Shown: piece after piece, positions 522-63,384 of the stretch
Position numbering within the stretch: the stretch's first letter is position 1
Layout: every line of letters starts with the position of its first letter
Origin: Rhodospirillales bacterium
GTDB taxonomy: Bacteria > Pseudomonadota > Alphaproteobacteria > Rhodospirillales > Rhodospirillaceae
DNA length: 64,000 bases
Direction of reading: 5' to 3'
Assembly (NCBI GenBank): GCA_028281845.1
Contig: JANQJD010000008.1
Span: forward strand, 62,001 to 126,000
Notes under the pieces: model-generated
Seen by the model: the letters and a program-made list of their open reading frames with translations, nothing else
What the model was told of the DNA's origin: nothing
Databases searched by the model: none
Made by a program: the position numbers and the translations under genes

Positions 522-1592
522 TTACGCTCTTGACCTGTCCACACCCACACTGTCACCATCGCTCCCTTCACCCGTCATGTCACGAGGACTCGCAGCCAGT
601 ACTTCCGATAACAAACCCGTGTTGGCGCGGATGAGACTCTCGATCTCCTCAACAATCTGTGGATTGGCCCGCAGGAAGTTCTTCGCATTTTCACGCCCCT
701 GGCCAATGCGTTGCGCATTGTAAGAAAACCATGAACCGGCCTTTTCAATCACGCCAGATTTTACACCTAGATCTATAATTTCCCCACTTTTTGATATACC
801 AAATCCATATATAATATCAAATTCAACAACTTTAAAAGGTGGTGCTATCTTGTTCTTTACTATTTTTACACGTGTTTGGTTGCCAATGATATCATCCCTC
901 TCTTTTATGGAGCCAACACGGCGTATATCTAAACGTACAGAAGAATAAAACTTTAATGCATTACCACCAGTAGTTGTTTCATGATTACCAAACACGATCC
1001 CGATCCTCATCCGGATCTGATTAATAAATATGACAAGCGTATTGGAGCGAGCCACTGAGGCGGTCAACTTTCGCAGAGCCTGGCTCATCAGACGGGCATG
1101 GAGACCAACATGACTATCGCCCATCTCACCGGCTAATTCTGCACGTGGTACTAGTGCTGCTACAGAGTCAACAACTACTACATCTATTGCCCCTGACCGT
1201 ACTAAGATATCACAGATTTCCAGTCCTTGCTCCCCCGCATCTGGCTGTGAGAGCAGTAACTCCTTAAGAATCACACCGAGCTTGCAGGCGTAGATGGCAT
1301 CCAGGGCGTGTTCAGCGTCTATAAAGGCACATGTCCCGCCCAGCTTTTGGGCCTCGGCAATCACATGCAAAGCCAAAGTCGTCTTCCCTGAGCTCTCCGG
1401 ACCATAGATTTCAACGATCCGCCCCCGTGGCAACCCACCCACGCCAAGAGCAATGTCCAACCCTAAGGAACCTGTAGGAATGCTCTCAACCTCTATCCCG
1501 CTGTCGCGGGCACCGAGGCGCATAATAGACCCCTTTCCGAAGGCCCGTTCAATCTGGTTCACAGCAGCTTCCAAGACCGTATGCTTATCCAT
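522..1592 (-). CDS. recA: RecA recombinase
   Basis: RecA forms the ATP-dependent filament for homologous recombination and SOS signalling. Seen here: Walker A GPESSGKT at residues 64-71, the DAEHALD segment at 92-98, Walker B VVVVDS at 138-143, the IFINQIRM segment and DNA-binding loop 2 ([10 protein letters not shown], 201-210). Length 356 aa is normal. Start chosen at 1592 because GGAAGAG sits 4-6 bases upstream; an ATG at 1607 has GAGG only 2 bases away. Oddities: the usual FGNPETTTGG reads [10 protein letters not shown] (Pro to His, E. coli position 206), HALDPIYAR reads HALDAIYAC, and GLAAR reads GLHAR, at places normally almost invariant. Bases about 758-990 are strongly AT-rich compared with the rest of the gene. 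The motor core looks intact, so function is still likely. Confidence 0.97.
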
Positions 1593-5171: not shown

Positions 5172-7255
5172 CAGTGTGTCACTCCCAGGTGAGAGAGGGT
5201 TGTGCGTAGCGACGCCAGAACGTTACAACCCATAAAGATAAAATCATCCACGCCAGCCTCCATATAGGCCTTCTTTTTGTCACCAGGATGACCAGCCAAG
5301 AAGAGCAACGTACAGCCGGCAGCCTTGAGAGCCGGGGCCATTCTCTCAACGTATTTCTCATAGAGCGCATCAGAGGAACACAGAATAGCGATGCGGGCCC
5401 CGCTGTCTCTAAATGCGGATGTGCAGGAATCAGCTTCTATGAAGCCGTCATTAGTCAGTGTCTGGATTCCGCCAGCCTCAAAGAAGTTCTTCGCATACGT
5501 CGCCCGCACAGTATGAGCGGCAATTGGCCCAAGATTGGCAAGAAAGATGGTCGGCAAAGTCCCTGTCCTAGTCTTGTAAGAGACAGCCGCATCCCGCAGG
5601 GCTTCAAAGGATTCCGCAAAATGCCGTCTGGGCAGAGCCTGGATACGCGTGTGTACAGCATCTGCTGTTAGGACAGTAGAAATACTTCCTATAGTTGCTT
5701 CTTTTGCAATTGCTGCAACTACAGTTGCTGTGATACTGCCAAGTTGAATGCCCCTGAGAGTCTCTGCGGCTGCAACACGATTAGCAGGCAAAGTGACCCG
5801 CGCCTGCTCAATGAGATATTCTCTTTTTGTACTACTTGAGTGGCGTGGCAATGTCTCGGCAATATTCGGGAACTCGGATAGGCCTGTGAGCGGGTCGCTA
5901 CGGTGGGCGATGTTTTTTTCACGGACGCGCCACACGGAGTCCATGTGCTCCGCGAGAACACCGCCGCAGAGAGCGGCGGCCATGCCGCCAGCCTTTTCGA
6001 TATCCTGGAACACCCCCCACGCGGCGTGGGCTAGTTCTTCTGTCAAGCGTTCAACATACCACGAGCCGCCAGCCGGATCAATCACCTGGGTCAGAGAGGA
6101 TTCCTCGCGCAGAATGATCTGGCTATTGCGGGCTATACGGCGTGCGAAATCACTTTGTTGGCCTAATGCATGGTCAAACGGCAGCATAGTGATGCTGTTC
6201 GCACCGGCAAGACCAGCGGCACAGGCCGCCGTCGTAATGCGCAGCATGTTAACCCACGGGTCATAGCGGGTCATCATCCGTTCTGTTGTCCGAGCGTGTA
6301 TGAGAGCCGCAGTAGGTGTTGCGGCGCATGATTCCGTGACACGGGCCCACAGCTTACGCGCTGCACGCAGCTTGGCCATAGAGAGGAAGAAGTCACAGCC
6401 CACTGGCAATGTAAACGAGATCTGCTGGCAGGCTGTGTTGACATCGAGACCAGCAGCCGTCATAGCCCGCAGATAAGCAACACCGGTCGCTATGGCACAC
6501 GCGAGATCCTGGCTCTCTGTCGCACCAGCCTCGTAGTAAGGCGTCGTATCAACGCCAACCGCAGTCACACCCGGCCAGTTGCGGGCCGTATAGGCTGCGA
6601 GGTCTGCCATGTGCGCCAGAGATTTTTCTACTGGCATTGGCAGAGCGCCAGTAGTGGCCAGAGCCCCCAAGGGATCAGCGTTGAAGGCGCCCTTCGCCTG
6701 ATCCCTGGAGACATTACGCTGCTGCCACAGAGACGCTAACAGCGCCGCAGCACTGAGGAACTGACTGCCAGCGGCCAGAGCAATGGGAACGCTGTCAAGC
6801 GGGACCCTCTCCATGAGGAGATCGAAATCAGCGCGCGCATATGCCATGACCCCATCGACGCCGATCAAAGTGGGGCTTGCTCGATCGGGATCAAAGCCAC
6901 TTCTCGCAGCCTGATCGAGACGGACCAAAAAAGATGTCACACCGCCTTTGAGATCGGCGAGTATAGCAGCGTTTGCAACCCTCAGATCAGGCTCGACATG
7001 CTCTTGACGAACGCACCACCCTTCAGCCCCCACCCCGCTCGCGCCAAAGCCACGGGTAAACGGTTGCATTCCCGGAAACCCAGATGGATCCCCCATAGCA
7101 GGCCAATCCTGACGGGTATAGAGGGGCTGAAGAGCGATTTCTTCGTATGTCCTGCTGACCATCTTCTTTTCGAACGGAGCGCCCTTCAGCGCTTTGTTTA
7201 CCGCGCTGCGCCATTCGGCATAGTGCTGTGTGGGGAAATCACCGGCCATATTCAT
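5171..7255 (-). CDS. mcmB: Methylmalonyl-CoA mutase, small subunit
   Basis: Non-catalytic partner of the heterodimeric mutase. It has the same two-domain fold as the large subunit (694 aa) with barrel segments such as [18 protein letters not shown] and the [17 protein letters not shown] region. Its C-terminal cobalamin-like domain lacks the D-x-H-x-x-G ligand motif: the aligned place reads [12 protein letters not shown], as expected for this subunit. First gene of the mcm operon; AGGAAAG lies 5-11 bases before the ATG. A heterodimeric enzyme is known from Actinobacteria and several Alphaproteobacteria, whereas E. coli Sbm is a single chain. Confidence 0.95.
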
Positions 7256-8694: not shown

Positions 8695-9281
8695 ACTTTC
8701 TTTCTTAAAATTATTGAGTGATTTGTTAAAGAGAGAAAATTTGCTATTAAAACGTGTCCATATGTAGAGGCAACACTTTCAGGGTGAAACTGGACGCCAA
8801 AAATCGGTCGTGTCCTGTGGGAGAGGCCCATGATAAGACCATCGCGAGTCACGGCTGTCACTTCTAAACAGTCAGGGAGTGTGTTTCTCTCGACGATCAG
8901 CGAGTGATAGCGGGTTGCCTTGAACGGACTCGATATACCGGCAAACAAAGAACTACCGGTATGGTAGATAGAACTGACCTTGCCATGCATTGGTACGGGC
9001 GCCCTGACGACCTTACCACCGAATGCCTGGCCAATCGCTTGATGGCCCAGACAGACGCCTAAGGTTGGCACACAGACCTGACTAATCAGATCTAAGCAGA
9101 TGCCCGCCCTCTCTGGATCACCTGGTCCAGGTGAAATAATTATTCCTTGAGATGCAATAGACAATATTCCTCTAACAGTAAGAGAATCATTTCTTTTCAC
9201 GACAACTTCAACGCCATGTTGACGAAGATAATGCCATAAGTTATATGTAAAACTATCATAATTATCTATTAAAACAAACAT
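8691..9281 (-). CDS. trpG: Anthranilate synthase glutaminase subunit (TrpG/PabA family)
   Basis: Class I glutamine amidotransferase that feeds ammonia to anthranilate synthase component I. Family start MFVLIDNYDSFTYNL fixes the initiation codon at 9281, although the frame is open ten codons further. Oxyanion motif SPGPGDPE (about 55), nucleophile Cys in GVCLGHQAIG (about 83) and the His-Glu of VQFHPES (about 175) complete the triad. 196 aa is normal. It could also serve p-aminobenzoate synthesis, since TrpG and PabA are often shared; coupling to trpD favours tryptophan. The first 50 codons are notably AT-rich. Confidence 0.95.
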   Translation of the reverse strand: MFVLIDNYDSFTYNLWHYLRQHGVEVVVKRNDSLTVRGILSIASQGIIISPGPGDPERAGICLDLISQVCVPTLGVCLGHQAIGQAFGGKVVRAPVPMHGKVSSIYHTGSSLFAGISSPFKATRYHSLIVERNTLPDCLEVTAVTRDGLIMGLSHRTRPIFGVQFHPESVASTYGHVLIANFLSLTNHSIILRKKV

Positions 9282-9382
9282 AACACCGCCTGGGTCTGCT
9301 GAATGGAGCAACAGTCAAGAATAAGAACATAAAAATGCATATTTTTTGTGGACAGAATGAGGTTAAGACTAGAAGAGCGCCA

Positions 9383-9536: not shown

Positions 9537-12314
9537 ATGGAAATTAAAAGTACAACTGCTGTGTCTACATCGGAAATCACACCTGTTCCCATCGAAGAGG
9601 AGATGAAACGTTCGTATCTCGATTATGCCATGAGTGTAATCGTCAGCCGGGCGCTCCCCGATGTTCGGGACGGCTTGAAACCTGTGCACAGGCGCATCCT
9701 TTTTGCAATGAAGGAAGGCGGTTATGATTACAACCAAAAATTTCGTAAATCCGCGCGCATTGTTGGCGACGTGATGGGAAAATATCATCCGCACGGCGAT
9801 ACAGCGATTTATGATGCTATGGTTCGTATGGCACAGGCTTTTGCTATGCGTCTCCCTCTCGTGGATGGACAGGGCAACTTTGGTTCCATGGATGGTGACC
9901 CGCCCGCCGCTATGCGGTATACTGAGGCCCGTCTGGCTCCTTCTGCACATGTTCTGCTGGAGGAACTGGAGAGGCAGACAGTCGATTTTCAGCCTAACTA
10001 TGACGAAACTATCAGCGAACCAACAGTTCTCCCAGCGCGTTTTCCCAATCTCCTCGTCAACGGGACTGGTGGCATTGCCGTGGGCATGGCGACCAATCTG
10101 CCGCCCCACAATCTGGGAGAAATCATCGACGCCTGCTGTGCCTATGTCGACGATCCGTACATTTCCATTGACTCATTGATGGAATACGTCCCCGCACCAG
10201 ATTTCCCGACTGGTGGGACTATTCTCGGTCGCGTTGGCGTACGAGCAGCCTATGCTACGGGGCGCGGTCCGATCATCGTGCGCGGCCGGTGCCATGTGGA
10301 GACATTGCCCAAGGACCGTCGGGCCATCGTGATTACAGAAATGCCGTATCAAGTGAACAAGGCGCGCATGATCGAGAGGATCGCCGAGCTCGTACGCGAG
10401 AGACGTATTGAGGGAATTGCAGACCTACGCGATGAGTCTGATCGCCATGGTCTACGGGTCGTCGCGGAACTGAAGAGGGATGCCGTCGCTGAGGTAGTGT
10501 TGAACCAGCTTTATCATTTCACACCTTTGCAAACTACTTTTGGTGTCAATGGACTCGCTCTGAATGGGGGGAGGCCAGAGATGATGACTCTGAAGGGGAT
10601 TATTGCTGCCTTCATCACTTTCCGTGAAGAAGTCATACGCCGGCGCACAGTCTTTCAATTGAAGCAGGCACAAGAGAAAGTCCACACCATGATCGGCCTG
10701 GCGATTGCTATTTACAATTTAGAAGATGTGATTTCTTTAATAAAAACAACAAATGATAGAAAAAATGCTCGTGCGGAGTTAGTCGCACGCATCTGGCCAG
10801 TTCGAGACGTCGCCCCTCTGATCCTTTTCGCAGACGGGACGGGTCGGCCTGTTGTGAACGACGGCTACCATCTGTCAGAAACCCAGGCCAACGCTATTCT
10901 TGATCTGCGTTTGCATCGTCTCACCGGGCTCGAGCACAGCAGACTGCACGCTAATCTGCGCGAGAACACAGAGCAGATTGCGGAATATCGCCACATTCTC
11001 TCTTCGCGCACCCATCTCTACACAATCCTCCGCCAGGAATTAGTCCAGATTAAGGAGGCCTTCAACACACCACGCCGGACCTCTATAGAAGAAAACAAAC
11101 TAGAACAAGACATCGAGGACCTCATACGGCGGGAAGATATGGTGGTCACTGTCACGAACACCGGCTATATTAAAAGGGTTCCCTTATCGACGTATCGCGC
11201 CCAACGCCGCGGGGGCAAGGGACGCACAGGGATGGTCACAAGGGAGGCAGATTTCGTCAGCCGCGTCTTCGTCGCCAGTACCCATGCACCTGTGCTTTTC
11301 TTCTCCTCAGCCGGCATCGTCTATAAACTTAAAATTTATAAACTTCCAGATGGAACTCCTCATAGTAGAGGCAAGGCCATGGTGAATTTGTTACCATTAA
11401 GAGAGAAACAAAGAATCTCCGCTGTGATGCCTCTCCCAGAAAAAGAGTCTATGTGGAAAGATTTACATGTTATGTTTGCAACATCTTCTGGTCATGTGCG
11501 GCGCAACCTGCTCTCGGATTTCACCAGTATCATGGCGAGTGGCAAAACTGCTATGAAGTTTGATTCAGAGGATAGTCTCATCAGTGTTTTACCGTGTACG
11601 GAGAATGACGACATCTTACTTTCGACACGTTATGGCAAGTGTATCCGTTTCCCCGTGACAGATGTACGTGTCTTTGCCGGACGGACATCTATCGGTGTGC
11701 GAGGGATCAAGCTTACAGAAGGAGACACGGTGATTGCAATGTCTGTATTAAGCCATGACGATTCTTCTCTGGAGCATCGTTCTACTTATCTGCGCTTGCG
11801 GCGCGGCAGCGAATCAGAGGGCATGGAGGATGAAGACGGCACGCTAGGCGACAGAACAGTGCTGTTATCCGAGGACTATGATCGCATGATGACAAAGGAG
11901 GAATTCATCCTGACCGTGACGGAACAAGGCTTCGGTAAGCGGACATCTGCCTATGAATATCGTGTCACGAGTCGCGGTGGACAAGGAATCGTCAATATAG
12001 AAACAACCCGTCGGAACGGGTTGGCAATCTCAGCGTTTCCTGTACGGCACAATGACCAAATTGTCATGATTGCTGACACAGGACAGATTATCCGTCTTCC
12101 TGTGGATAGCATACGCCTGGCGCGCCGTGCCACGCAAGGCGTGACTCTCTTTCGCACGGGAGAAAATCAGCGGGTGGTTTCAGCTGTGCGGCTGACGGAC
12201 GTTGGTCGTGAGGTGATGAATCCTCACGCTGGCAATAGCCCAGTCAGGGGCGGACAATCCTCGCAGGATGGCAGAGGAGGTAATGAGAAAGGAGCTGCTC
12301 ATGGGAATGGGTGA
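9537..12314 (+). CDS. gyrA: DNA gyrase subunit A
   Basis: Breakage-reunion subunit of gyrase, which introduces negative supercoils. Quinolone-determining region [17 protein letters not shown] (85-100), catalytic Tyr128 in AMRYTEARL, and the GyrA box QRRGGKG (about residue 555) at the start of the C-terminal pinwheel, which separates it from ParC. 925 aa is typical. Thr occupies the position of E. coli Ser83. The Shine-Dalgarno AAGGAG (9530-9535) is followed after one base by the ATG, an unusually short spacing, but no better in-frame start exists. Segments near 10711-10770 and 11320-11490 are AT-rich. It overlaps coaD. Confidence 0.98.
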
Positions 12315-15974: not shown

Positions 15975-16802
15975 TTGAGTATTGCGGCCAACGTCAAGCG
16001 GATCACCATCCACGACATCCGTCAACGCAAGGGTGGTATCCCTATTGCTGTACTGACTGGATATACTGCGACTATGGCTCGTTTGCTTGACCCATTAGTA
16101 GATATTATATTAGTTGGAGATTCGCTTGGTATGGTAATTTATGGTATGGAAACCACACTTGGCGTTACAGTTGATATGATGATTCATCACGGTGAAGCTG
16201 TCGTGCGTGCTAGTCGTCGCGCTTGTATCATCATCGATATGCCGTTCGGCAGCTATCAGGAATCTCCGCAAACTGCATTCCGTACAGCGGCCCGTGTGAT
16301 GGCGATGACTGGTTGTGCCGGTGTCAAGCTGGAAGGCGGAGATGAAATGGCAGAAACCATCTCTTTTTTAGTTCAGCGTGGAATCCCGGTCATGGGGCAC
16401 GTCGGTTTGATGCCACAGTCGGTGCACGCGTTTGGCGGATTCCGAACACAAGGACGTGATGAGGCTGCTGCTGAGACTATCGTTGCGGATGCCATGGCCA
16501 TTGCAGCAGCTGGCGTTTTCTCTATCGTGGTCGAAGGCGTCATGGAGTCAGTCGGTCGCCGGATCACAGAAAGGGTGCATGTGCCGACAATCGGTGTCGG
16601 CGCTTCGCCAGCTTGTGATGGACAGGTGCTTGTCACAGAAGACATGTTAGGAATGTTTAACGAATTTCAGCCTCGCTTTGTGAAGCAATTCGCCCATCTC
16701 GGGATGGAAGCCCAGAAAGCATTCGCGGCCTATGTTGAGGAAGTAAGGGCCAGAACCTTTCCGGGCCATGAACACTGTTTTGGGATGAAGAAAGGAAACT
16801 GA
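15975..16802 (+). CDS. panB: 3-methyl-2-oxobutanoate (ketopantoate) hydroxymethyltransferase
   Basis: Uses 5,10-methylene-THF to hydroxymethylate 2-oxoisovalerate, first committed step to pantothenate. Family segments: [11 protein letters not shown] (about 47-57), [28 protein letters not shown] and [14 protein letters not shown]. 275 aa is standard. The start is TTG (15975) with the strong site GGAGGAAAG (15961-15969), spacing five bases. Single-gene unit with no panC beside it. Bases about 16090-16150 are AT-rich. Confidence 0.97.
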
Positions 16803-26899: not shown

Positions 26900-27877
26900 C
26901 TAAGGGAGCGTGGCACAATAGCGTTCAATGCTCTCACGCACGCGTGAGTGTATGGGAGGTGTGAGAGGTGGTGGCAGAAATGCTATCCCCGTCACAGCTT
27001 CGTAAAGACTCACGTAACGGCGTGTGAAATCAACAACCTTTTCTAGCGGAAGCATTGGGATGGGCTGATGATAGGGATCACAACAGGCCAGGACCCATGA
27101 GCGTGCAAAGTCCTTATCTAAGTTCTCGGGCCTCTCTTCCCGAGACAGCCTGTCCTCGTAGGTGTCAGCGACCCAGTAGCGGCTGCTGTCAGGAGTGTGA
27201 ATTTCATCCGCTACCATCAGTCTACCATCTGTCGCGAAGCCGAATTCGTATTTTGTATCGGCGAGAATCAGCCCTCTGCGCCGTGCGATTGCACTGCCAC
27301 GAGCAAATAAACGCATAGCAATATCAGCAATACGTTCCCACTGTTTTGAGGAAAGAACACCATTTGTTACAATATCAGCAGGAGATATAGGCGTATCAAC
27401 TGCACCCTTCGTCGTAGGAGTAATTACTGGTTGCGGTAGCGGATGATTTTCTTGCAATCCCTCTGCAAAGCAGAGGCCATATAGGGTGCGTGCTCCTGCC
27501 TTGTACAAGGTCCAGAGAGAGGTTCTGCTAGTCCCAGTTATATAGGCACGCACGATGACTTCAAGCGGAATCATAGACAACTGTTCAACCACGACGACAT
27601 TAGGATCAATCGCTGCCCGCACATGATTAGCAACTATGTCAGCTGTCTGCTGAAACCAGTATAAGGCCATCTGGTTAAGAATCTGTCCCTTGAAGGGAAT
27701 ACAGCCAATGACCGTGTCAAACACGCTGATTCTGTCAGTGGACACCACTATCCTGCTCCCGTCTGCAAGGTCAAAGTTATCTCGGACCTTCCCGCGATGA
27801 CGGCATTGCAACGTTGGCAGATCGACACCAACGAGGGTTGCGGTGAGTCGCTGTTCTATCTCAGGCGTGTGACTCAT
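26900..27877 (-). CDS. purC: Phosphoribosylaminoimidazole-succinocarboxamide (SAICAR) synthase
   Basis: ATP-dependent ligation of aspartate to CAIR in purine synthesis. Motifs: RGKVRDNFDL (nucleotide loop), STDRISVFD, PLEVIVRAYITGTS, ILADTKYEFG and DEIHTPDSSRYW. 325 aa places it in the longer, yeast Ade1-like branch rather than the 240-aa bacterial form. Monocistronic, with short spacers on both sides. Bases about 27300-27380 are AT-rich. Confidence 0.97.
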   Translation of the reverse strand: MSHTPEIEQRLTATLVGVDLPTLQCRHRGKVRDNFDLADGSRIVVSTDRISVFDTVIGCIPFKGQILNQMALYWFQQTADIVANHVRAAIDPNVVVVEQLSMIPLEVIVRAYITGTSRTSLWTLYKAGARTLYGLCFAEGLQENHPLPQPVITPTTKGAVDTPISPADIVTNGVLSSKQWERIADIAMRLFARGSAIARRRGLILADTKYEFGFATDGRLMVADEIHTPDSSRYWVADTYEDRLSREERPENLDKDFARSWVLACCDPYHQPIPMLPLEKVVDFTRRYVSLYEAVTGIAFLPPPLTPPIHSRVRESIERYCATLP

Positions 27878-34924: not shown

Positions 34925-37122
34925 GCAGGCTTGCCGCACTTGTTGGCATCGAACCAGTGTATTGGGATATTTTCGGTCATCGCCACGAAACAGAAGAAGA
35001 CACTAGGCTTTTGCTAATGTCCGCCATGGGGTTGGCAATAGACACCCCTGATACTGCGAGAGAACACCTGAAGGCCATTGAGGAGCGAACGTGGGGGCGT
35101 TGGCTCAGGTTTTTCACCGTCGTTCGCCGCGGCAGGCCAATGACCGTGCCGCTGTATCTGCCAGCCGATGTGACTCGGCATCCAATGGTTTGGAGTCTTT
35201 CTGCTGAGGATGGCCGTGTGTTGAGTGGACGCCTGTGGCCCGGGACTCTCAAGAGCACTGAAAGCTGTGTGATTGACGGGAAAAAGATTGTGCGGCTGCT
35301 GCTGCTTTTACCAGAAGAAGTGTGTGATGGCTATCATACTCTCACGCTTCAGGATGGAAAAGACTCTGTACGTGGGACTGTTGTTGTCGCACCGTCGGCC
35401 TCCTACCTTCCCGCCTGGTTCAGCCGCGCTCAGGAGCGGCGCTGGGGTGTTGCCTGCCATCTGTATGCCCTGCGTTCTGAGAAAGACTGGGGTATTGGTG
35501 ACTTCACTACCCTGGTCCAGCTTGCGACAGCGCTTGCCGGGAGTGGAGCGACATGCATTGGTCTCAACCCTCTCCATGCCTTGTTCCCCCATAACCCATT
35601 GCATTGTAGCCCCTATTCCCCGTCAAGCCGGCTGTTTTTGAACCCGCTTTACATTGATGTGAGCGCTGTGCCAGAGTTTGGAGAATGCGACAGGGCGTCC
35701 AGGCGCATCAAAACGGCCAAATTCAAGAAACGTTTGGAAAAAGCACGGACTACGCCGTACGTGGATTATCCAGCAGTGGCCGCATTAAAGTTTGAAGTTC
35801 TTGTATTGCTTCATGCGTGCTTCGAATCGCTCCATCCTGCTGGACACACAGCCGATAAACGCCGTAGGGCCTTTCAGCTCTTCTGCGAAGAAGGGGGAGA
35901 GCCGCTTTATCGCTTAGCCCTTTATCAGGCTCTTGTTGAGGCCCACAATGGCCTGGGTTGGCCAGATTGGCCAGTGGCGTTTCAGAATCCTAACAGCGCG
36001 GCAGTGCGTGCCTTTGCACGGGATAAAGCACATGCGAAACGCATTGCTTATCACCTCTACCTGCAATGGGAGGCAGACCGTCAGCTGTGTGCAGCTGCGC
36101 ACCGTTGCACTGATAGCGGACTGTCTGTTGGCTTATACCGCGATCTCGCTGTCGGCGTGGACTCCGCTGGAGCCGATGTGTGGAGTCACAAGGAAACTTT
36201 TGCCGCTGCTCGTGTGGGGGCACCGCCGGATCAGTTCAATGCTCAAGGGCAAGACTGGGGTTCCCCGCCGTTGAATCCACTGCGGCTACAGGAGGAAAAC
36301 GGTTACGCTGATTTCATCGCCGTGTTACGGGCTAATATGCGCCATGCCGGTGCCTTACGCATCGACCATGTCATGGCGCTGCTGCACCTTTTCTGGATTC
36401 CACTCGGCGGTAACCCATCTACCGGCGCTTATGTAAGCTATCCCTTAGAGGACCTGCTGGGAATCGTCGCCCTGGAGAGTCATCGTCACCAATGCATGGT
36501 GATAGGTGAGGATCTAGGCACTGTCCCGCCTGCATTTCGCGATCATATGACGGCTGAAGGCATTCTCTCCTACCGGGTGCTAATGTTCGAACGCTGGCCA
36601 GATACAAACTTTTTCAAGAGACCACATACATATCCACCATTTGCACTAGCAATAGCTTCTACACATGATTTACCAACTGTGGCTGGGCACTGGTATGGCA
36701 CGGATATCACGCTGAAAAAGCGACTGAATCTAGTCTCAGCGGACAAATCAGCGGCAGCAATGGCAGAGCGGAACACTGATAGAAGGTTGTTACGCGCAGC
36801 CCTTGTTGATCAACACTTGATAGAACAGTCTTTCCCACTGGATACCAGTCTCGACGCAGAGAATCTGCAGGCTTTAGTTCTCGCGGTACACCGTTTCCTC
36901 GCTCGATCCGCTAGCCGCTTTATGCTCGTTAACCTAGATGATCTCTTACTTGAAACTACACAGCTTAACTTGCCGGGGACGATAGACGAATATCCTAACT
37001 GGCGGCGGAAAACTCCACAATTGATAGAATCACTGCATACTAACTCCTACATACGTACCAGCGCAGCAGCGATTAACGCCGATCGTTCTTTATCCGTATC
37101 CGTAGAACGAGAATTATCTTAA
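34903..37122 (+). CDS. malQ: 4-alpha-glucanotransferase (amylomaltase)
   Basis: GH77 disproportionating enzyme acting on malto-oligosaccharides released during glycogen breakdown. Barrel signatures: GDFTTLVQLATALAGSGATCIGLNPLHALFP, LYIDVSAVPEFGE, catalytic Asp in LRIDHVMALLHLFWIP, Glu in VIGEDLGTVP and Asp in STHDLPTVAGHW. 739 aa includes the N-terminal extra domain seen in E. coli-like MalQ. GGAGAG lies 8 bases upstream of the ATG, inside the glgX tail. Last gene of the operon. A short AT-rich stretch occurs near 36610-36670. Confidence 0.97.
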   Translation: MDQSETLSRLAALVGIEPVYWDIFGHRHETEEDTRLLLMSAMGLAIDTPDTAREHLKAIEERTWGRWLRFFTVVRRGRPMTVPLYLPADVTRHPMVWSLSAEDGRVLSGRLWPGTLKSTESCVIDGKKIVRLLLLLPEEVCDGYHTLTLQDGKDSVRGTVVVAPSASYLPAWFSRAQERRWGVACHLYALRSEKDWGIGDFTTLVQLATALAGSGATCIGLNPLHALFPHNPLHCSPYSPSSRLFLNPLYIDVSAVPEFGECDRASRRIKTAKFKKRLEKARTTPYVDYPAVAALKFEVLVLLHACFESLHPAGHTADKRRRAFQLFCEEGGEPLYRLALYQALVEAHNGLGWPDWPVAFQNPNSAAVRAFARDKAHAKRIAYHLYLQWEADRQLCAAAHRCTDSGLSVGLYRDLAVGVDSAGADVWSHKETFAAARVGAPPDQFNAQGQDWGSPPLNPLRLQEENGYADFIAVLRANMRHAGALRIDHVMALLHLFWIPLGGNPSTGAYVSYPLEDLLGIVALESHRHQCMVIGEDLGTVPPAFRDHMTAEGILSYRVLMFERWPDTNFFKRPHTYPPFALAIASTHDLPTVAGHWYGTDITLKKRLNLVSADKSAAAMAERNTDRRLLRAALVDQHLIEQSFPLDTSLDAENLQALVLAVHRFLARSASRFMLVNLDDLLLETTQLNLPGTIDEYPNWRRKTPQLIESLHTNSYIRTSAAAINADRSLSVSVERELS

Positions 37123-46919: not shown

Positions 46920-47681
46920 TCAGAGTTGAATAGCGCGGTTGCGAGCGATATCGAGGAAGACCTCTTCTAAGGTCTCACGACCATAACGGCGAATCAGATC
47001 GGGAGGAGTACCACGGTCATAAATGCACCCATGCCTCATGATCAAAACGAAATCACACAACCGCTCAACTTCCGCCATGTTGTGCGACGCTAATAGCAGT
47101 GTAGCGCTGTAAGATTCAAGGTAGCTCCGTACCCAGTCGCTTGTGTCCGGATCCAGGGAAGCAGTCGGTTCATCCAGAAACAACAATTCTGGTCTATTTA
47201 AGAGCGCCTTGGCGAGAAGGACGCGCGTTCGCTGTCCAGCAGAAAGTTGGCCGCATGGACGATTCAGCAGATTCTCTATATTGAGTTCCCGCGCTAAATT
47301 AGCAATACGGCCCCGTGCATCCGGAATGCCGTACAGATGGGCATAGACTGTCATATTTTCTCGCACTGAAAGTCTATGTGGGAGATCAACATATGGAGAA
47401 GAAAAATTAATACGAGAAAGAACACGATACCGTTGATTGACCATATCCTCGCCAAGCACCCTGATTGTACCAGAACTCGGTAGGAGAAGACCAAGGAGTA
47501 TAGAAATGGTTGTCGTTTTCCCAGCACCATTCCCCCCTAAAAGGGCAACTCTCTGTCCGAGATTGACTTTAAAAGAAATAGAATTAACGGCAGCAACTTC
47601 ACCATACCGTTTTGTCAGGTCCTGCACCTCAATCACTGGGGCATGGGCTGTGCAGGAGAGAACTGTTGCGCACTGCATCAT
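46920..47681 (-). CDS. ABC transporter ATP-binding protein (ABC-2/NodI-like), permease not adjacent
   Basis: About 254-aa ATPase: Walker A LLGGNGAGKTTT, signature QLSAGQRTRVLLAKALL, Walker B LLFLDEPTASLDP, and switch His (ASHNMAEVERLCD). The C-terminal GRETLEEVFLDIAR is typical of ABC-2 exporters that move polysaccharide, antibiotics or lipids. Start at MMQCATVLSC (47681); the longer open frame overlaps the phaC end and is unlikely. Neighbours are hpnC (convergent) and phaC, so no permease partner is present within this window. Confidence 0.88.
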   Translation of the reverse strand: MMQCATVLSCTAHAPVIEVQDLTKRYGEVAAVNSISFKVNLGQRVALLGGNGAGKTTTISILLGLLLPSSGTIRVLGEDMVNQRYRVLSRINFSSPYVDLPHRLSVRENMTVYAHLYGIPDARGRIANLARELNIENLLNRPCGQLSAGQRTRVLLAKALLNRPELLFLDEPTASLDPDTSDWVRSYLESYSATLLLASHNMAEVERLCDFVLIMRHGCIYDRGTPPDLIRRYGRETLEEVFLDIARNRAIQL

Positions 47682-47835
47682 CACTCGGACGATAGGCAGA
47701 CAGCGGCAAATCTGCCGGAATCGTGAAGAAGATGCAGCACAGCAAACAGAAATGTCTGCTGCCAGGAGTGGCTGGCGGATACGAGAAGACGCACCCGCAC
47801 ACCCCTTGCGTCTCCGCAGACGATACTCACCGAAA

Positions 47836-49638
47836 CTACCCGACCCGCATTTTGACATAACTCCCTGGTGCTTCATCAAGCGCCTTCATGGGGCCTTCGC
47901 CTGGCACACGAGCCTGGGCCTGGACTTTGTCCGGCGCCTGTTTTGACACCCAATCGAGCCAATCTGGCCACCAAGAACCAGGTTGTTGCTGGGCTCCCTG
48001 GAACCAAGACTCAGGATTTTTGAGCAGCTTTTTCGCACTGGTCCAGTGATGATACTTTTTACCCGCTGGTGGGTTAATCACACCAGCAATATGACCAGAA
48101 GCAGCCAGAACAAAGCGGACAGGCCCCCCCAATAACTGGGCACTAGCATAGTTAGATTTCCAAGGTGCGATATGATCTTCAATGGTTGAGAGGAAATAGG
48201 CTGGTGCCTTGACTTTCCCAAGATCAACTGGCACGCCCAACATATTCAGAGCACCAGGCTCCTTGAGCTTGTTTTCCTGATAGAACTTGCGGAGATAAAA
48301 GCTATGCATAGCATAGGGCATGCGCGTAGAATCGCTATTCCAGTACAGAAGATCAAATGGGAAGGGATCCTTGCCCAGCAGGTAGTTATTGACCACAAAT
48401 GACCAGATGAGGTCGTTTGCGCGCAAGAGGTTGAACGTGGTGGACATTTCCGCACCATCGAGATAACCACGCTCACGCATCTTTGCTTCAGCCAGTTGAA
48501 TCTGCGCCTCATCCACGAACACGCCCAGTTCTCCTGGCTCGGCAAAATCAAGCATGCAGGTAAAATACGTTCCGCTTTTGATTCGACCCTCTTCTTTTGC
48601 GGCGAGAACCGCCTGTGTGGCCGCTAGCAGCGTGCCTCCTAAACAGTACCCAAGCCCGTTGACCTCTTTCTCCCCAGTGATCTGTTCGATAATGTTGAGC
48701 GTTTCAATGGGACCCAGTCGCATATACTCGTCAAACGTGTATTTTGATAATTTTTCGTCTGGATTGACCCAAGACATAACAAAAACCGTGTGCCCTTGGT
48801 CGATACACCACTTGATAAATGAATTCTTGGGACTCAGATCCATGATGTAGTACTTGTTGATCCATGGCGGTACAATCATAAGAGGTCTCTTGAAGACATG
48901 CTCTGTTGTTGGCATGTACTGAATGACCTGCGCCAGTTCATTCTGATGAATGACCTTGCCAGGAGTGGAGGCGATATTCTCTCCCACATTGAAGGCATCA
49001 TAATCTGTCATCCTGATCCGAATCTGGCCTTTTCCCTGCTCAAGGTCGCTCAATACATTATTAAGACCTTTTAAGAGATTTTCTCCACCACTATCAATCG
49101 TAGCACGTAATACTTCTGGATTAGTCATAATAAAATTTGTCGGTGCCATAGCATCGACAAACTGTCTTGTGTAGAAATCAACTTTGCGGGCTGTTTTTTC
49201 ATCTAAACCATCAACATTTTTCACCACAGATTGAATCCAGCGGGCACTGAGCAGGTAGGATTGCTTGATAAAGTCAAACACATGATTTTTTTCCCATGTC
49301 GCGTCCTTAAAGCGTTTGTCGCTCGGATCAGACTCGATCACAGAGGGTCTTGCTTCGCCTAGCATACGGCGAGTCGTGCTCTGCCACAGAGCAAGAGAAT
49401 CTTGCCACAGTGACATCTGTGCGTTCATGACTCTTTGCGGGTCCGCTAACAGTTTTTCCGTCATCTCCATGAAGGCACTGCCGATGTTCATAGGGTCAAG
49501 CCCAAACTTCACATTCTCTGTCTGTCTCTGTAGAAAAGCAGCGACAACCCTCTGGCTCCGTTCAGCAATGTTCACCATTGTCTTAGACAACTCGGCAGGG
49601 TTCGGCGTATTCAGTATTCCACCCTGTTGATCACCCAT
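47836..49638 (-). CDS. phaC: Class I poly(3-hydroxyalkanoate) synthase
   Basis: Polymerises (R)-3-hydroxyacyl-CoA into storage PHA granules. Lipase-like box GYCLGG (330-335) with nucleophile Cys332, Asp488 in STIEDHIAPW and His516 in ASGHIAGVINPP. N-terminal domain and length (600 aa) fit class I (single subunit). Start MGDQQGG at 49638, with GAGGA seven bases upstream. A near-consensus promoter lies about 108 bases upstream. phaA, phaB and phasin genes are not in the window. Confidence 0.97.
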   Translation of the reverse strand: MGDQQGGILNTPNPAELSKTMVNIAERSQRVVAAFLQRQTENVKFGLDPMNIGSAFMEMTEKLLADPQRVMNAQMSLWQDSLALWQSTTRRMLGEARPSVIESDPSDKRFKDATWEKNHVFDFIKQSYLLSARWIQSVVKNVDGLDEKTARKVDFYTRQFVDAMAPTNFIMTNPEVLRATIDSGGENLLKGLNNVLSDLEQGKGQIRIRMTDYDAFNVGENIASTPGKVIHQNELAQVIQYMPTTEHVFKRPLMIVPPWINKYYIMDLSPKNSFIKWCIDQGHTVFVMSWVNPDEKLSKYTFDEYMRLGPIETLNIIEQITGEKEVNGLGYCLGGTLLAATQAVLAAKEEGRIKSGTYFTCMLDFAEPGELGVFVDEAQIQLAEAKMRERGYLDGAEMSTTFNLLRANDLIWSFVVNNYLLGKDPFPFDLLYWNSDSTRMPYAMHSFYLRKFYQENKLKEPGALNMLGVPVDLGKVKAPAYFLSTIEDHIAPWKSNYASAQLLGGPVRFVLAASGHIAGVINPPAGKKYHHWTSAKKLLKNPESWFQGAQQQPGSWWPDWLDWVSKQAPDKVQAQARVPGEGPMKALDEAPGSYVKMRVG

Positions 49639-54242: not shown

Positions 54243-55739
54243 ATGCCAGAATGTTCTTCCTTGCGGACAGCTCCACTAGCTCATGGCAGGAGTCGCCATG
54301 TGTTAGATGTGCAAAATCTCAGAGGTTTAACGGCTGACTCACGGCAGGTTCAACCCGGTTATCTGTTTGCGGCATTAGCAGGTCGTGTACGTGATGGACG
54401 TACCTATATTGAAGAGGCTATCGCGCGTGGCGCACGAGTCATTCTTGCAAGGCATGGAACAAAAATATCTGCACAAGGAGTTTTTCTCGTAGAAGATAGT
54501 AATCCTAGAAAAAGATTTTCTAAAATCGCAGCATGTTTTTACAAAAAACAACCTAAAATAATTGTTTCTGTCACGGGGACAAATGGAAAAACATCAGTCG
54601 TGAACTTTGTGCGTCAGCTCTGGGCACAGCTTGGTGTTTCGGCCGGGAGTCTCGGGACATTAGGGGTGAGAGCGCCTGGCGTGACATTTCCGGGTGGTCT
54701 GACTACACCAGACCCTGCAGCCCTTCACGCCATTCTGGCGGACTTGGCGAATCGCGGTATTGAACAGGTTGCTTTAGAAGCCTCCAGCCACGGTCTTGAT
54801 CAGTGTCGCTTAGATGGTGTGCACTTAGCTGCTGCGGCCTTTACCAACCTGACTCGCGATCACCTGGACTACCACGGCACCATGAATGCTTACATTAATG
54901 CAAAATTGCGATTATTCACAGAATTACTACCAAAAAAAGCACCTGCCGTGCTCAATGCTGATGACCCTGCTTTTCCCATCTTCAGAAAGGCAGCAGCGGC
55001 TTGTGGCGCGCGGGTGTTGTCCTATGGTCTGAGGGGGGAAGATCTCCGCCTCGTTGCAGGCGTGTCGACAGAATCAGGACAGATGTTGGAGCTGTGCATA
55101 CAGGAAAAGCGTTTCAAGGTACATTTTCCATTGCTGGGATCGTTCCAGGTTATGAATGCTCTGTGTGCTCTGGGGCTCGTGGTAGCGATGGGCTGGCCCG
55201 TTGATGCGGCGACAGCAGCTTTTGCTACTTTAGAGGGTGTTCCAGGCCGCCTACAGTGGGCTGCAACACGGTGTCATGGCGCGCCGATTTATGTGGACTA
55301 CGCTCATACACCAGCGGCGCTGGAGACAGTCCTAACTGCGCTGCGCCCCCAGAGGAGAGGTAGATTATTAATAGTATTCGGATGTGGAGGTGATCGTGAT
55401 AATGGTAAAAGAACACAAATGGGACTCATTGCCGCGCGTCTAGCCGATGTGGTGATTATCACAGACGATAATCCAAGAAGCGAAAAACCAGAAGATATAC
55501 GTTCTGAAATTTGTAAAGGATGCAAAAATTTTTATAATATAGAAAATCGCTATATAGCAATACAATTTGCTATATCAATTCTACAGCAGAATGATGTATT
55601 ATTAATAGCAGGAATGGGACATGAGAAAAAATATGTTGTTATAGATGGAAAAGTACAATTTTTAGACGATAAGACAATCTGTCAGCACGCTGTCGCCCTG
55701 GTTGATACGTCAGCCGATCACATCGGAGAGTGTGCATGA
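54243..55739 (+). CDS. murE: UDP-MurNAc-tripeptide ligase adding meso-diaminopimelate
   Basis: Adds the third stem-peptide residue. ATP loop VTGTNGKTSVVN (GTNGKT at 112-117), LEASSHGLDQCRLDGV, TNLTRDHLDYHGTM, VDYAHTPAALE, and DDNPRSE: the DNPR motif marks meso-DAP specificity. 498 aa. Two long AT-rich islands, about 54460-54590 and 55480-55680 (about 23-27% GC per 60 bases), interrupt GC-balanced coding. Starts 26 bases after ftsI and overlaps murF by ATGA. Confidence 0.97.
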   Translation: MPECSSLRTAPLAHGRSRHVLDVQNLRGLTADSRQVQPGYLFAALAGRVRDGRTYIEEAIARGARVILARHGTKISAQGVFLVEDSNPRKRFSKIAACFYKKQPKIIVSVTGTNGKTSVVNFVRQLWAQLGVSAGSLGTLGVRAPGVTFPGGLTTPDPAALHAILADLANRGIEQVALEASSHGLDQCRLDGVHLAAAAFTNLTRDHLDYHGTMNAYINAKLRLFTELLPKKAPAVLNADDPAFPIFRKAAAACGARVLSYGLRGEDLRLVAGVSTESGQMLELCIQEKRFKVHFPLLGSFQVMNALCALGLVVAMGWPVDAATAAFATLEGVPGRLQWAATRCHGAPIYVDYAHTPAALETVLTALRPQRRGRLLIVFGCGGDRDNGKRTQMGLIAARLADVVIITDDNPRSEKPEDIRSEICKGCKNFYNIENRYIAIQFAISILQQNDVLLIAGMGHEKKYVVIDGKVQFLDDKTICQHAVALVDTSADHIGECA

Positions 55740-57160
55740 CGATTGTATGGACTGCAGCGGAGGCAGCTGCCGCTACTGGCGGGTCCATTGCCGCCAACTG
55801 GCATGTAAGTGGCGTGTCCATCGACAGCCGTACTGTGAAAAAGGGTGAACTCTTCATCGCTCTGCAGGGACACCGTTATGATGGACATGAATTCGTCACC
55901 ACTGCCTTGGCCAGGGGCGCAACGGCAGCGGTCGTCACGCGGATTCCCGACGGGATAGTTTCTGTAAAATCACTTTTAATAGTAGAAGACACACGGGTTG
56001 CTCTTGAGTCTCTTGCCCGTCAGGCCCGTGTCCGCAGTACGTCCCGGGTTGTGGCCATCACTGGTTCTGTTGGCAAAACCAGTACAAAGGAGATGTTGCG
56101 GCTTGTCCTCGCAGAACAGGGGCTCACCCATGTTTCCGAAGACAACCTTAACAACCATTTGGGTGTACCACTGACACTGGCTCGCATGCCAGCTGCCACT
56201 GATTTTGTTGTCCTAGAAATGGGGATGAACCATGCGGGCGAACTGTCCACGCTGTCACGGCTAGCACGGCCAAATGTAGGGGTGATTACTACAGTTGAAG
56301 CGGTCCATCTCGAATCTTTCACCTCTATGCGCGGAATCGCTGATGCTAAAGCAGAGCTCTTCACCGGTATGAAGAGGAATGGGATTGCCATTCTCAACAG
56401 AGACAGCAAACATTTTGATTATATCACTCGTAATGCGATTGATCATGGTATTAAATATATTTACAGTTTTGGTTATCATTGTGATTCTGATTTCAAATTG
56501 TATAATTGTCACATGACAAACGAAGGGACTCTTGTCAGAGCGAGTATTTTGGACCAGCCAGCCGCTTACTCACTAAGCACGTATGGGAGCCACTGGGCCA
56601 TCAACAGTTTAGCTGTGCTGGCAACTGTCCATGCCGTGGGCGGACACGTCAGCCGGGCAGCCTCGGCTCTAGAAAAAGTGCAACCTCTGCCGGGTCGTGG
56701 CGCCCGTCTGAAGTTGCTTGTCACTGCCGATTGCGGCAGCATTGAAGTGATCGATGAAAGTTATAATGCCAGTCCAGTCGCTGTGCGGGCAGCCATGGAG
56801 GTCCTGGGAGCTGCGCATCCAGGCCCAGGGGGACGCAGAATTGCCGTTTTGGGGGACATGCTGGAGCTTGGTGAAAGCGCTGCAGCACTGCATGCAGAAT
56901 TAGCAGATTCTGTTCTGTCTAACAAGATAGACCTTGTGTTTACTGCTGGGCCGCTAATGGCATACTTGCACACGGCCTTGCCACCAGAAAGACGCGGTCG
57001 CCATGCCGTAAACACCGCCGTTCTTGCTACGCATGTGGTAGCGGCAACCAGGCCAGGCGACGTGGTGCTCGTCAAAGGGTCTGCCTGTAGCAGGACAGGC
57101 GTGATTCTCACAGCGCTGCAAAGGCATGCCGCGTCTGTCTCTGTCTTTCCCAGGGGATAG
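55736..57160 (+). CDS. murF: UDP-MurNAc-tripeptide:D-Ala-D-Ala ligase
   Basis: Adds D-Ala-D-Ala to finish the pentapeptide precursor. [19 protein letters not shown] near the N-terminus, ATP loop [23 protein letters not shown], and [15 protein letters not shown]. 474 aa. ATG at 55736 overlaps the murE stop (ATGA) with GGAGAG six bases upstream. An AT-rich island at about 56410-56515 encodes an Asn/Tyr/Ile/Lys-rich stretch. Confidence 0.97.
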
Positions 57161-59667: not shown

Positions 59668-60803
59668 TACGAGCCGCCCCTTTTATTACACGTCTTGATA
59701 CGAGTATCTTGGGGCGCTGGTGGTGGACCGTAGATCGGTGGACATTTGGTGCGGTGGTCGTCCTCGTGAGTATCGGCGCCCTGCTCACACTTGCGGCTAG
59801 CCCAGCGGTTGCACACCGTATTGGTGTATCCCGTTTTTATTTCGTCTATCGGCAGGCTGCTTTTATTCCCTTAGCAGCTGGCCTTTTGTGGCTTGTCTCG
59901 TTACAAACACATCGTACCGTACGCCGCATTGGAATGATTGGGTTTCTTACCTCCCTCAGCTTGATGGCACTCACCCCTCTTGTTGGGGAGGAAGTTAAGG
60001 GGGCCACTCGCTGGATCAATCTGATGGGTTTTTCTTTACAACCTTCCGAGTTTATCAAGCCGACCTTCGCCGTTGTCACCGCCTGGATTCTTGCAGAGAG
60101 CCGTGCCAGGACACAGGCTTTTCCTGGTGACTGGGTTGTCGCTGCCCTCTATAGCGGGATTGTCATCTTGCTGCTTATGCAGCCAGATATTGGTATGGCA
60201 TTGATGGTGACACTGCTGTGGGCAGTTCAATCCTTTTTGTCTGGCCTTTGTTTTTTCTGGGTGGTGTGGCTGGCAATGGGCGGTATCGCATCAGGAGTCG
60301 GCGTCTATTTTTTCTTCAGCCATGTACGTAACCGTGTTGATCTTTTCCTCGATCCCCATGCGGGTGATTCTTACCAGATTGCTAAGGCATTGCAGTCATT
60401 CCGCAATGGTGGTTTTGTTGGGAGAGGTCCAGGAGAAGGGCGCGTCAAGGAGGTGCTGCCGGATGCTCATACAGATTTCATCTGTGCCGTTGCGGGAGAA
60501 GAATTTGGTTCACTATTATGTTTTCTCATCATAGGATTGTTCATATTTATAATACTTCGTGGATTCGTACAAATATTCAAGACTAATAGTCTTTTTACTT
60601 TTTTATCTGTCAGTGGAATACTTTTTCATATTGGATTACAAGCAGTTATTAATATGGCGTCCTCCTTACGTTTAATACCAACTAAAGGGGTGACACTTCC
60701 ATTTATTTCCTACGGTGGTTCTTCTTTACTGGCCCTCAGCATGGGCATGGGAATGGTGCTCGCTCTGACCAGGCGCCCTCCAAGGGAGGGGAATCTGCCA
60801 TGA
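59664..60803 (+). CDS. ftsW: Peptidoglycan glycosyltransferase FtsW (SEDS family)
   Basis: Septal SEDS polymerase working with FtsI. About ten membrane helices; GATRWINLMGFSLQPSEFIKP, LLMQPDIGMALMV with the essential Asp, DAHTDFICAVAGEEFG, and PFISYGGSSLLAL. 379 aa. ATG overlaps murD by 4 bases. Bases 60500-60700 form an AT-rich island (about 25-30% GC) in an otherwise balanced gene. Confidence 0.97.
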   Translation: MIRAAPFITRLDTSILGRWWWTVDRWTFGAVVVLVSIGALLTLAASPAVAHRIGVSRFYFVYRQAAFIPLAAGLLWLVSLQTHRTVRRIGMIGFLTSLSLMALTPLVGEEVKGATRWINLMGFSLQPSEFIKPTFAVVTAWILAESRARTQAFPGDWVVAALYSGIVILLLMQPDIGMALMVTLLWAVQSFLSGLCFFWVVWLAMGGIASGVGVYFFFSHVRNRVDLFLDPHAGDSYQIAKALQSFRNGGFVGRGPGEGRVKEVLPDAHTDFICAVAGEEFGSLLCFLIIGLFIFIILRGFVQIFKTNSLFTFLSVSGILFHIGLQAVINMASSLRLIPTKGVTLPFISYGGSSLLALSMGMGMVLALTRRPPREGNLP

Positions 60804-61963: not shown

Positions 61964-63384
61964 TCCGTATCCCACCACTTGACGTCGGGATCATCCATTT
62001 TGTTGGCATCGGCGGGATGGGCATGTCCGGGATCGCTGCAATCCTACACAATATGGGGTATGCGGTCCAGGGTTCAGACGTGGCGGATGGTCCAAACGTC
62101 CAGCGTCTACGGTGGCTCGGCATTCCAGTCACTGTAGGGCATGCCGCAAGAAACTTGGGTGCAGCTACAGTAGTAGTGGTCTCAACTGCTATTGGGAGCG
62201 ATAACCCCGAAGTCACTGCTGCCCGCCAGAGTCTGATTCCAGTTGTGCGACGATCTGAGGTGCTAGCCGAACTGATGCGGTTCAGGTACTCTATAGTAGT
62301 GGCAGGAACTCATGGAAAAACAACTATTACGTCAATGATCGCCGCACTCTTAGATTCTGCAGGTCTTGATCCTACAGTTGTCAATGGTGGTATCATCAAC
62401 GCCTATGAGACGAATGCCCGATTAGGGGGAGGAGACTGGATAGTAGTGGAGGCTGATGAATCCGATGGCACTTTCACTAAAGTGCCCGCTACTATTGCGG
62501 TGGTCACGAGTATCGATCCTGAGCACCTTGATTTCTGGGGTGGTTTGGATCAGCTGCGTGAAGCTTTTTGTCTCTTTACCCAAAATGTTCCCTTTTACGG
62601 GTTTGCCATTTTATGCCTTGATCATCCAGAGATTCAAACACTGATTGCCCGTGTGTCAGACCGTAGGATAATCACCTATGGCCTGACACAACAGGCTGAT
62701 ATTCACGCGCGCAATGTTGTCCTGGATGCTCAAGGGGCAACATTCGATGTCGTATCTGAAAAAAGTGTTATAAAAAATACTACATTTAATATTAATATTC
62801 CTACTTATGGTCTTCACAACGTACAGAATTCACTTGCTGCTATCGCAATAGCTGTCATTCTGGGGATTGAGAATCACATTATTGTTCGTGCTTTGGCTAG
62901 ATTCAGGGGTGTCAAGCGTCGCTTTACCCGCATAGGGGTTGTGGATGGCGTAGAGGTCGTAGACGATTATAGCCATCATCCAATAGAAATTGCTGCTGCC
63001 CTGAGGGCGGCCCGCAGTGTTTGTAGGGGAAAGATATTGGCTGTAGTACAACCACATAGATATACTCGTCTTAGAGACCTATTTGGGTTATTTTGCACGT
63101 GTTTTGATGATGCCGATATTGTGATCGTGGCTGATGTCTACTCAGCCGGTGAGCCTGTGATTGATGGTATGCACCGCGATGCCTTAGTCGAAAGTCTGCG
63201 CGCTCATGGTCATAAGCATGTTCTTGCCCTACCACATGAGAAAGTCCTAGCGAGGGTGGTCCAGGCGCTGACGCAGCCAGGAGATTGGGTTGTCTGTCTT
63301 GGGGCTGGAAGTATCACGCAGTGGGCCCACGCCCTCCCAGGTGCACTAGAGAGCTTAGGAACAGCCGCAGGGGACGGAATGTGA
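61960..63384 (+). CDS. murC: UDP-MurNAc:L-alanine ligase
   Basis: Adds the first stem-peptide residue. FVGIGGMGMSGIAAIL, GSDVADG, ATP loop VAGTHGKTTITSM, EADESDGTF, SIDPEHLDFW, VVDDYSHHPIEI and QPHRYTRLRDL. About 474 aa. ATG at 61960 overlaps the murG stop (ATGA); the frame is open upstream inside murG and is not used. AT-rich islands at about 62755-62815 and 63020-63090. Confidence 0.97.
   Translation: MIRIPPLDVGIIHFVGIGGMGMSGIAAILHNMGYAVQGSDVADGPNVQRLRWLGIPVTVGHAARNLGAATVVVVSTAIGSDNPEVTAARQSLIPVVRRSEVLAELMRFRYSIVVAGTHGKTTITSMIAALLDSAGLDPTVVNGGIINAYETNARLGGGDWIVVEADESDGTFTKVPATIAVVTSIDPEHLDFWGGLDQLREAFCLFTQNVPFYGFAILCLDHPEIQTLIARVSDRRIITYGLTQQADIHARNVVLDAQGATFDVVSEKSVIKNTTFNINIPTYGLHNVQNSLAAIAIAVILGIENHIIVRALARFRGVKRRFTRIGVVDGVEVVDDYSHHPIEIAAALRAARSVCRGKILAVVQPHRYTRLRDLFGLFCTCFDDADIVIVADVYSAGEPVIDGMHRDALVESLRAHGHKHVLALPHEKVLARVVQALTQPGDWVVCLGAGSITQWAHALPGALESLGTAAGDGM

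Follow-up and report, generated by a model that had tools for sequence, protein, structure and literature searches.

A 64,000-nucleotide stretch of a Rhodospirillales genome (the window; contig JANQJD010000008.1) contains core genes of balanced composition that are interrupted by short AT-rich islands with sharp edges. These islands raise the question of whether they are real features of the genome and, if so, which process produces them. The host genome (G000) is small (1.33 Mb, 97% complete), with most relatives in its family at 2.6-5.5 Mb. The sole other genome of the genus in the comparison (the sister genome, G001) is a coral-skeleton MAG that was matched to Rhodospirillales bacterium isolate PL23a_bin.50 (JANQEW010000008.1); the PL23a bins originate from Porites lutea skeleton at Heron Island (PMC11070183). 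The two genomes share approximately 88% nucleotide identity and are syntenic across the window. Alignment to the sister fails or is weak at 53074-53761 (ftsI) and 59671-60044 (the 5' part of ftsW), in genes that are otherwise syntenic. A single GyrA/ParC-type match was found in each of the two genomes, and nearly all family relatives have GyrA and, in addition, a second, ParC-like match, which suggests that this genus has lost topoisomerase IV subunit A.

Genes were called by ORF length in a sample of about 29% of the host genome, and gene identities rest on E-values and family names, so that functions are predicted. By family models, the places examined lie in recA, gyrA, a trpG-type amidotransferase gene, a PHA synthase gene (phaC) and a D-amino-acid dehydrogenase gene, as well as in murE, murF, ftsW and murC of a division and cell-wall cluster. 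A synonymous scan held the amino acid fixed and shuffled synonymous codons within each gene, and a dip was defined as a 30-codon drop in synonymous GC3 at z<-4. For tract calling, a two-state HMM was fitted to synonymous GC3 in the host and the sister alike. The comparison set (n=14) comprised G002, G005 and G006 of the same family, ten other alphaproteobacteria (1.2-2.8 Mb, most 1.2-2.0 Mb; GC 0.28-0.64) and E. coli.

AT tracts are genome-wide and specific to the genus

Windows of 60 bases are over-dispersed in G/C content (SD 4.51 versus a binomial 3.87). Recounting reproduced the G/C values per 60 bases that had drawn attention to the islands at 55501-55560 (14), 55621-55680 (15), 62761-62820 (13), 60541-60600 (15), 10711-10770 (13) and 781-840 (16), and corrected the one at 54481-54540 from 16 to 17. 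The neighbouring stretches are GC-richer, as claimed, with 0.47-0.54 GC in the 300 bases on each side. The synonymous scan also upheld the islands proposed at 9135-9265 (trpG-type, p<1/2000) and 49060-49130 (phaC, p=1/2000). The island proposed at 40670-40870 in the D-amino-acid dehydrogenase gene was not upheld (GC 0.44, scan p=0.17), and the one in murF is AT-rich as described, with marginal significance (Table 1). In the focal interval of murE (55480-55680), GC at the three codon positions is 0.45/0.23/0.14.

Table 1. AT tracts and AT-rich stretches in the window, with values for the host genome unless the sister genome (G001) is named; scan p is per gene.
Gene or ORF	Coordinates	Strand	Codons	GC3	GC3 in G001	Scan p	Remarks
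murE, C-terminal part (focal)	55470..55664	+	65	0.11	0.23	<1/2000	scan z -6.17; HMM; nucleotide identity to G001 0.733
murE	55359..55424	+	22	0.09	0.32		stronger than in G001
murE, N-terminal part	54432..54569	+	46	0.11	0.22		common to G001; alignment
ftsW	60498..60683	+	62	0.19		1/2000	HMM
murC	62746..62835	+	30	0.13	0.10	0.027	common to G001; HMM
murF (AT-rich stretch)	56410..56515	+				0.08	GC 0.26, in G001 0.34; marginal alone
PHA synthase (phaC)	49054..49158	-	35	0.17	0.26	1/2000	common to G001
ORF 46920-47879	47355..47435	-	27	0.11			common to G001
ORF 34903-37122	36622..36678	+	19	0.00			
ORF 26900-27877	27299..27406	-	36	0.14	0.39		not called in G001
ORF 15975-16802	16047..16193	+	49	0.27			common to G001
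gyrA (AT-rich stretch)	10711..10770	+		about 0.1	0.19	0.009	GC3 about 0.79 in 28 relatives
trpG-type glutamine amidotransferase gene	9117..9290	-	58	0.14		<1/2000	scan z -5.66
methylmalonyl-CoA mutase small-subunit-like gene	5657..5731	-	25	0.04			
recA	756..851	-	32	0.06	0.19	<1/2000	common to G001
recA	924..989	-	22	0.05			common to G001
recA	1131..1190	-	20	0.10	0.40		not called in G001

The pattern reaches well beyond the places first listed, since dips were found in 15.7% of genes across 306 kb around the window, compared with 0.36% under the shuffle null. Peaks of GC (>4) in the same 306 kb were near the null (0.5% of genes versus 0.2%). About a quarter of genes bear short AT tracts of about 90 bases, and the share of genes with a dip is 18-22% in the two genomes. 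Two-state tracts are strongly preferred (delta logL 429); in both genomes the low state has a mean length of 14-16 codons, covers 7-9% of codons and has a GC3 of 0.18-0.22 versus 0.53. Confident tracts in the host number 97 in 386 kb (median 29 codons, GC3 about 0.1-0.2 versus about 0.55). Their spacing is about Poisson (gap CV 0.95), and they are placed uniformly along genes with no strand asymmetry. The original prediction held that uniform mutation pressure should not give such patches, and both the amino-acid-conditioned dips and the two-state tracts bear this out.

None of the 14 comparison genomes, among them reduced alphaproteobacteria and family members matched in GC, has a comparable excess of dips. 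In the same-family controls of equal GC the HMM returned weak gene-scale variation only; dips were present in 3 of 22 genes in G153 (GC 0.64; 0.6 expected) and in 3 of 63 in E. coli. A strong dip signal in the control G006 was a gene-calling artefact that vanished with homology-supported genes. The islands are thus confirmed as real, genome-wide and genus-specific.

Conservation in relatives, shared positions and elevated substitution

A constraint on the encoded proteins would be expected to show in GC-rich relatives, and it does not. For the murE, gyrA, phaC and recA islands, 25-28 relatives are without a dip and conservation is average, and at invariant codons of these four genes GC3 is 0.00-0.29 in tracts versus 0.40-0.53 outside. 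A further comparison of tract columns covered 19 genes that have a G011 orthologue and, for the most part, orthologues in G018, G010 and G004 too. Relatives have a GC3 of 0.73-0.88 at these columns, and identity between G011 and G018 is 0.665 there versus 0.711 elsewhere, compared with 0.587 versus 0.746 between the host and G011. This combination of normal GC and near-normal conservation in relatives leads us to reject protein constraint. Relaxed or constrained protein segments were likewise rejected as a source of the dips, which neither track amino-acid variability nor occur in relatives. At sites where G011 and G018 agree, the excess in tracts is 5-fold for changes specific to the host and 1.7-fold for those on the shared stem. 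Tracts also lie further from outgroups in total amino-acid distance.

Tract positions are largely held in common by the two genomes. Among 59 alignable host tracts, 47 overlap a tract in the sister, compared with 23% after random shifting. Across the edges of host tracts GC3 in the sister falls from 0.49 to 0.25, a sharpness partly inherited from the edge definition. The sister's values at host tracts are graded rather than all-or-none, and intermediate states exist. With regard to a single-event origin, graded intermediates and ongoing change point towards repeated events, and a few tracts resemble single replacements. Some genome-specific tracts do resemble wholesale replacement, including one at codons 136-156 of the C17:150380 gene, with 42% of the nucleotides differing at its centre.

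The near-invariant lysine of the MurE GKGHE motif is replaced in both genomes (GMGHE), within the AT tract at 55480-55680. Over positions 49054-49233 the PhaC protein of the host is 95% identical to that of the GC-rich G011 and 85% identical to that of the sister, an order that reverses the one in the rest of the gene; the sister's copy has residues of more distant family members.

Rates were obtained from this one genome pair, with tract edges partly ascertained, and on that basis A<->T differences per paired A/T 4-fold site are 6.0-fold up in shared tracts (95% CI 4.6-7.3) and amino-acid differences 3.1-fold up (2.6-3.6). Total 4-fold differences are 1.6-fold up, a value compressed by two-letter composition. 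Across tracts of any kind, G<->C is 3.2-fold up (CI 1.2-5.3) and A<->T at positions 1 and 2 is 7.5-fold up. Changes at positions 1 and 2 are 4-9-fold above background when they lead to A/T and 1.5-3-fold when they lead to G/C, and those from G/C to A/T are 4-5-fold up. Transitions and transversions from G/C are raised equally at 4-fold sites in tracts. When tracts were set on non-4-fold codons only, 4-fold A<->T was 0.12-0.21 versus 0.03, and G/C-to-A/T change was still raised. Polarised replacements that lower GC12 stand at 92:9 in tracts and 192:106 outside, and the replaced residues are present in relatives in 58% of cases in tracts versus 77%.

Local AT content is not the driver of these rates: sites in GC-richer surroundings inside tracts evolve fast, and those in AT-rich surroundings outside do not. 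A neighbour-context or self-reinforcing melting feedback was discarded because AT-rich contexts outside tracts mutate no faster. There is no strand coordination, as per-tract A versus T at 4-fold sites is not over-dispersed (p 0.19, 0.06), and strand-specific deamination was rejected on this test. The product bias suggested a pure A-insertion rule, which was rejected because it would give more A<->T than the roughly 12% of paired A/T sites inferred for genome-specific tracts. Outside tracts, A<->C plus G<->T differences at 4-fold sites between the two genomes (0.089) exceed transitions (0.061); this unusual transversion-rich background could point to oxidative damage.

Origin of the tracts

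The composition, discreteness, lineage specificity and sister sharing of the tracts are established, as are their raised rates and the bias of their products towards A/T. The reading that we prefer, at a probability of roughly 45%, is one of discrete, heritable hypermutable tracts, in which recurrent, tract-confined, AT-producing substitution acts in place and is filtered by selection. Under this reading, random stretches of tens of bases to about 200 would be hit repeatedly in this genome-reduced genus, with the new base mostly A or T regardless of the old one. Purifying selection would clear most amino-acid damage, confining saturation to silent positions, which level off at about 85-90% A/T, and the proteins would shift slowly towards Ile, Lys, Asn and Ser/Thr. 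We infer mutation in place on four grounds: substitutions have gone on accumulating since the two species separated, intermediate stages are present, divergence outside tracts has a clonal look, and no donor turned up among the 118 relatives screened. Of the causes put forward earlier, region-specific repair, taken here as a mutation or repair process, would fit best, and the earlier interpretation as a whole is partly supported.

A molecular source is speculative and might be, for example, low-fidelity resynthesis that repeatedly refills patches left damaged or persistently single-stranded. Y-family polymerases (PF00817; DinB/UmuC/ImuB) are absent in both genomes of the genus and in the nearest outgroup, G011, and a search of 19 genomes detected them in 15; such resynthesis would therefore need replicative-type or Pol I enzymes. 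Against hypermutation in place, there is no mutator or positional signal, UDG, MutS and HhH-GPD glycosylases are present, and some genome-specific tracts are replacement-like. The tracts showed no flank motif, flank structure (hairpin or G-quadruplex-like signal) or strand bias. A common sequence source or inserted element was rejected, as tracts have no second copies in 386 kb, no shared repeat or repeat family, and no indel excess between the two genomes. The broader proposition, that position-stable heritable tracts of about 90 bases are rewritten to A/T several times faster, independently of base content, strand, motif and protein constraint, as a local regime undescribed in bacteria, we hold tentatively and consider somewhat unlikely; for bacteria, the open-licence literature yielded no matching description of AT tracts within genes or of local hypermutation.

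The main rival, which we judge unlikely, is that AT-rich sister lineages, one or several and so far unsampled, donated short homologous segments, each of which brought in codon usage and divergence in one step. Such imports would be discrete, randomly placed and in frame with all substitution classes raised, as the tracts are; they would account for the near-total replacements with clean flanks, and an AT-rich donor would bring amino acids already filtered by selection. However, no donor was found among the 118 relatives, where the order of tract similarity is G001, then G011, then others, and the phaC tract ranks G011 above G001 yet follows no AT-rich donor. One old import does not predict the excess of A<->T within tracts of both genomes, the replaced residues are less common in relatives, and the sister's values are graded. 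Silent divergence outside tracts is nearly uniform (variance within genes 1.06x binomial, between genes 1.29), which argues for clonal evolution and would require imports to be exclusively AT-rich.

Selection for local AT-richness, through nucleoid-protein binding, mRNA softness or ribosome pausing, for instance, appears improbable. It would agree with positions being kept despite sequence turnover and with the equal rise of transitions and transversions from G/C, but a preference for AT content would not by itself raise silent A<->T changes, which are 4-6-fold up. The random placement along genes and genome without a motif, and the cost of amino-acid replacements such as that of the MurE lysine, also speak against it.

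The same uniformity of silent divergence disfavours patchy gene conversion, which the original prediction had listed among possible causes. In a related explanation, conversion, possibly GC-biased, homogenises most of the genome and diverged segments escape to an AT mutational equilibrium. All substitution classes are indeed deeper in tracts, the terminal-branch excess (5-fold) is greater than that of the stem (1.7-fold), and the presence of MutS would permit mismatch-dependent barriers. Nevertheless, no mosaic of divergence exists outside AT tracts between the two genomes, and deeper coalescence alone does not predict the raised amino-acid distance to outgroups; we consider this account quite improbable. 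Ordinary heterogeneity, whether from assembly error or from variable stretches of protein under relaxed codon constraint, is very improbable: tract columns do vary slightly more among relatives, but GC3 is low at invariant codons, tracts are not depleted in conserved genes, controls from the same pipeline are clean, and most tracts recur with intact frames in an independent MAG at 88% identity, by which the suggested strain mixing in the assembly is also rejected for most tracts.

Implications and comparison with known systems

In molecular clocks, codon-usage tests and genome-decay models, the silent sites of a gene are taken to follow one regime; here the silent rate and equilibrium differ several-fold inside one gene, over distances of tens of codons. 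Should local hypermutation be the correct reading, AT-enrichment in symbionts may proceed patch by patch rather than uniformly, and a mutagenic or repair mechanism of a new kind would be at work. Should import be correct, an unsampled AT-rich lineage would be exchanging very short tracts.

The tracts resemble several known systems in part. They share low local GC with xenogeneic AT-rich islands, but are tens of codons long and belong to core genes passed on vertically (murE, recA, gyrA). Insertions of the Rickettsia palindromic element type are extra sequence absent from homologues, whereas the tracts align to relatives through conserved residues. As in reduced symbiont genomes, there is a drift to A/T and to Ile, Lys and Asn in a small genome; unlike symbiont-wide AT enrichment, it is confined to patches of about 7-9% of codons, and the ten other alphaproteobacteria are without comparable patches. 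GC-biased gene conversion is said to be a driver of bacterial GC content that links local recombination to local GC. By itself it would be expected to change the balance of G/C and A/T only, whereas here A<->T is strongly raised and there is no visible mosaic of conversion. In bacteria, short imports by homologous recombination likewise give sharp-edged, in-frame patches of raised divergence in core genes, but the present tracts are exclusively AT-rich and very short, with no donor found and a clonal, even background. Mutation showers and kataegis are short clusters of substitutions that span tens to hundreds of bases and stand far above background, as the substitutions in the tracts stand above their nearly uniform surroundings. 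Kataegis typically consists of strand-coordinated C-to-T/G changes in one burst; the tracts described here are strand-symmetric, have transversions equal to transitions and raised A<->T, and continue to change in the same places after the species split.
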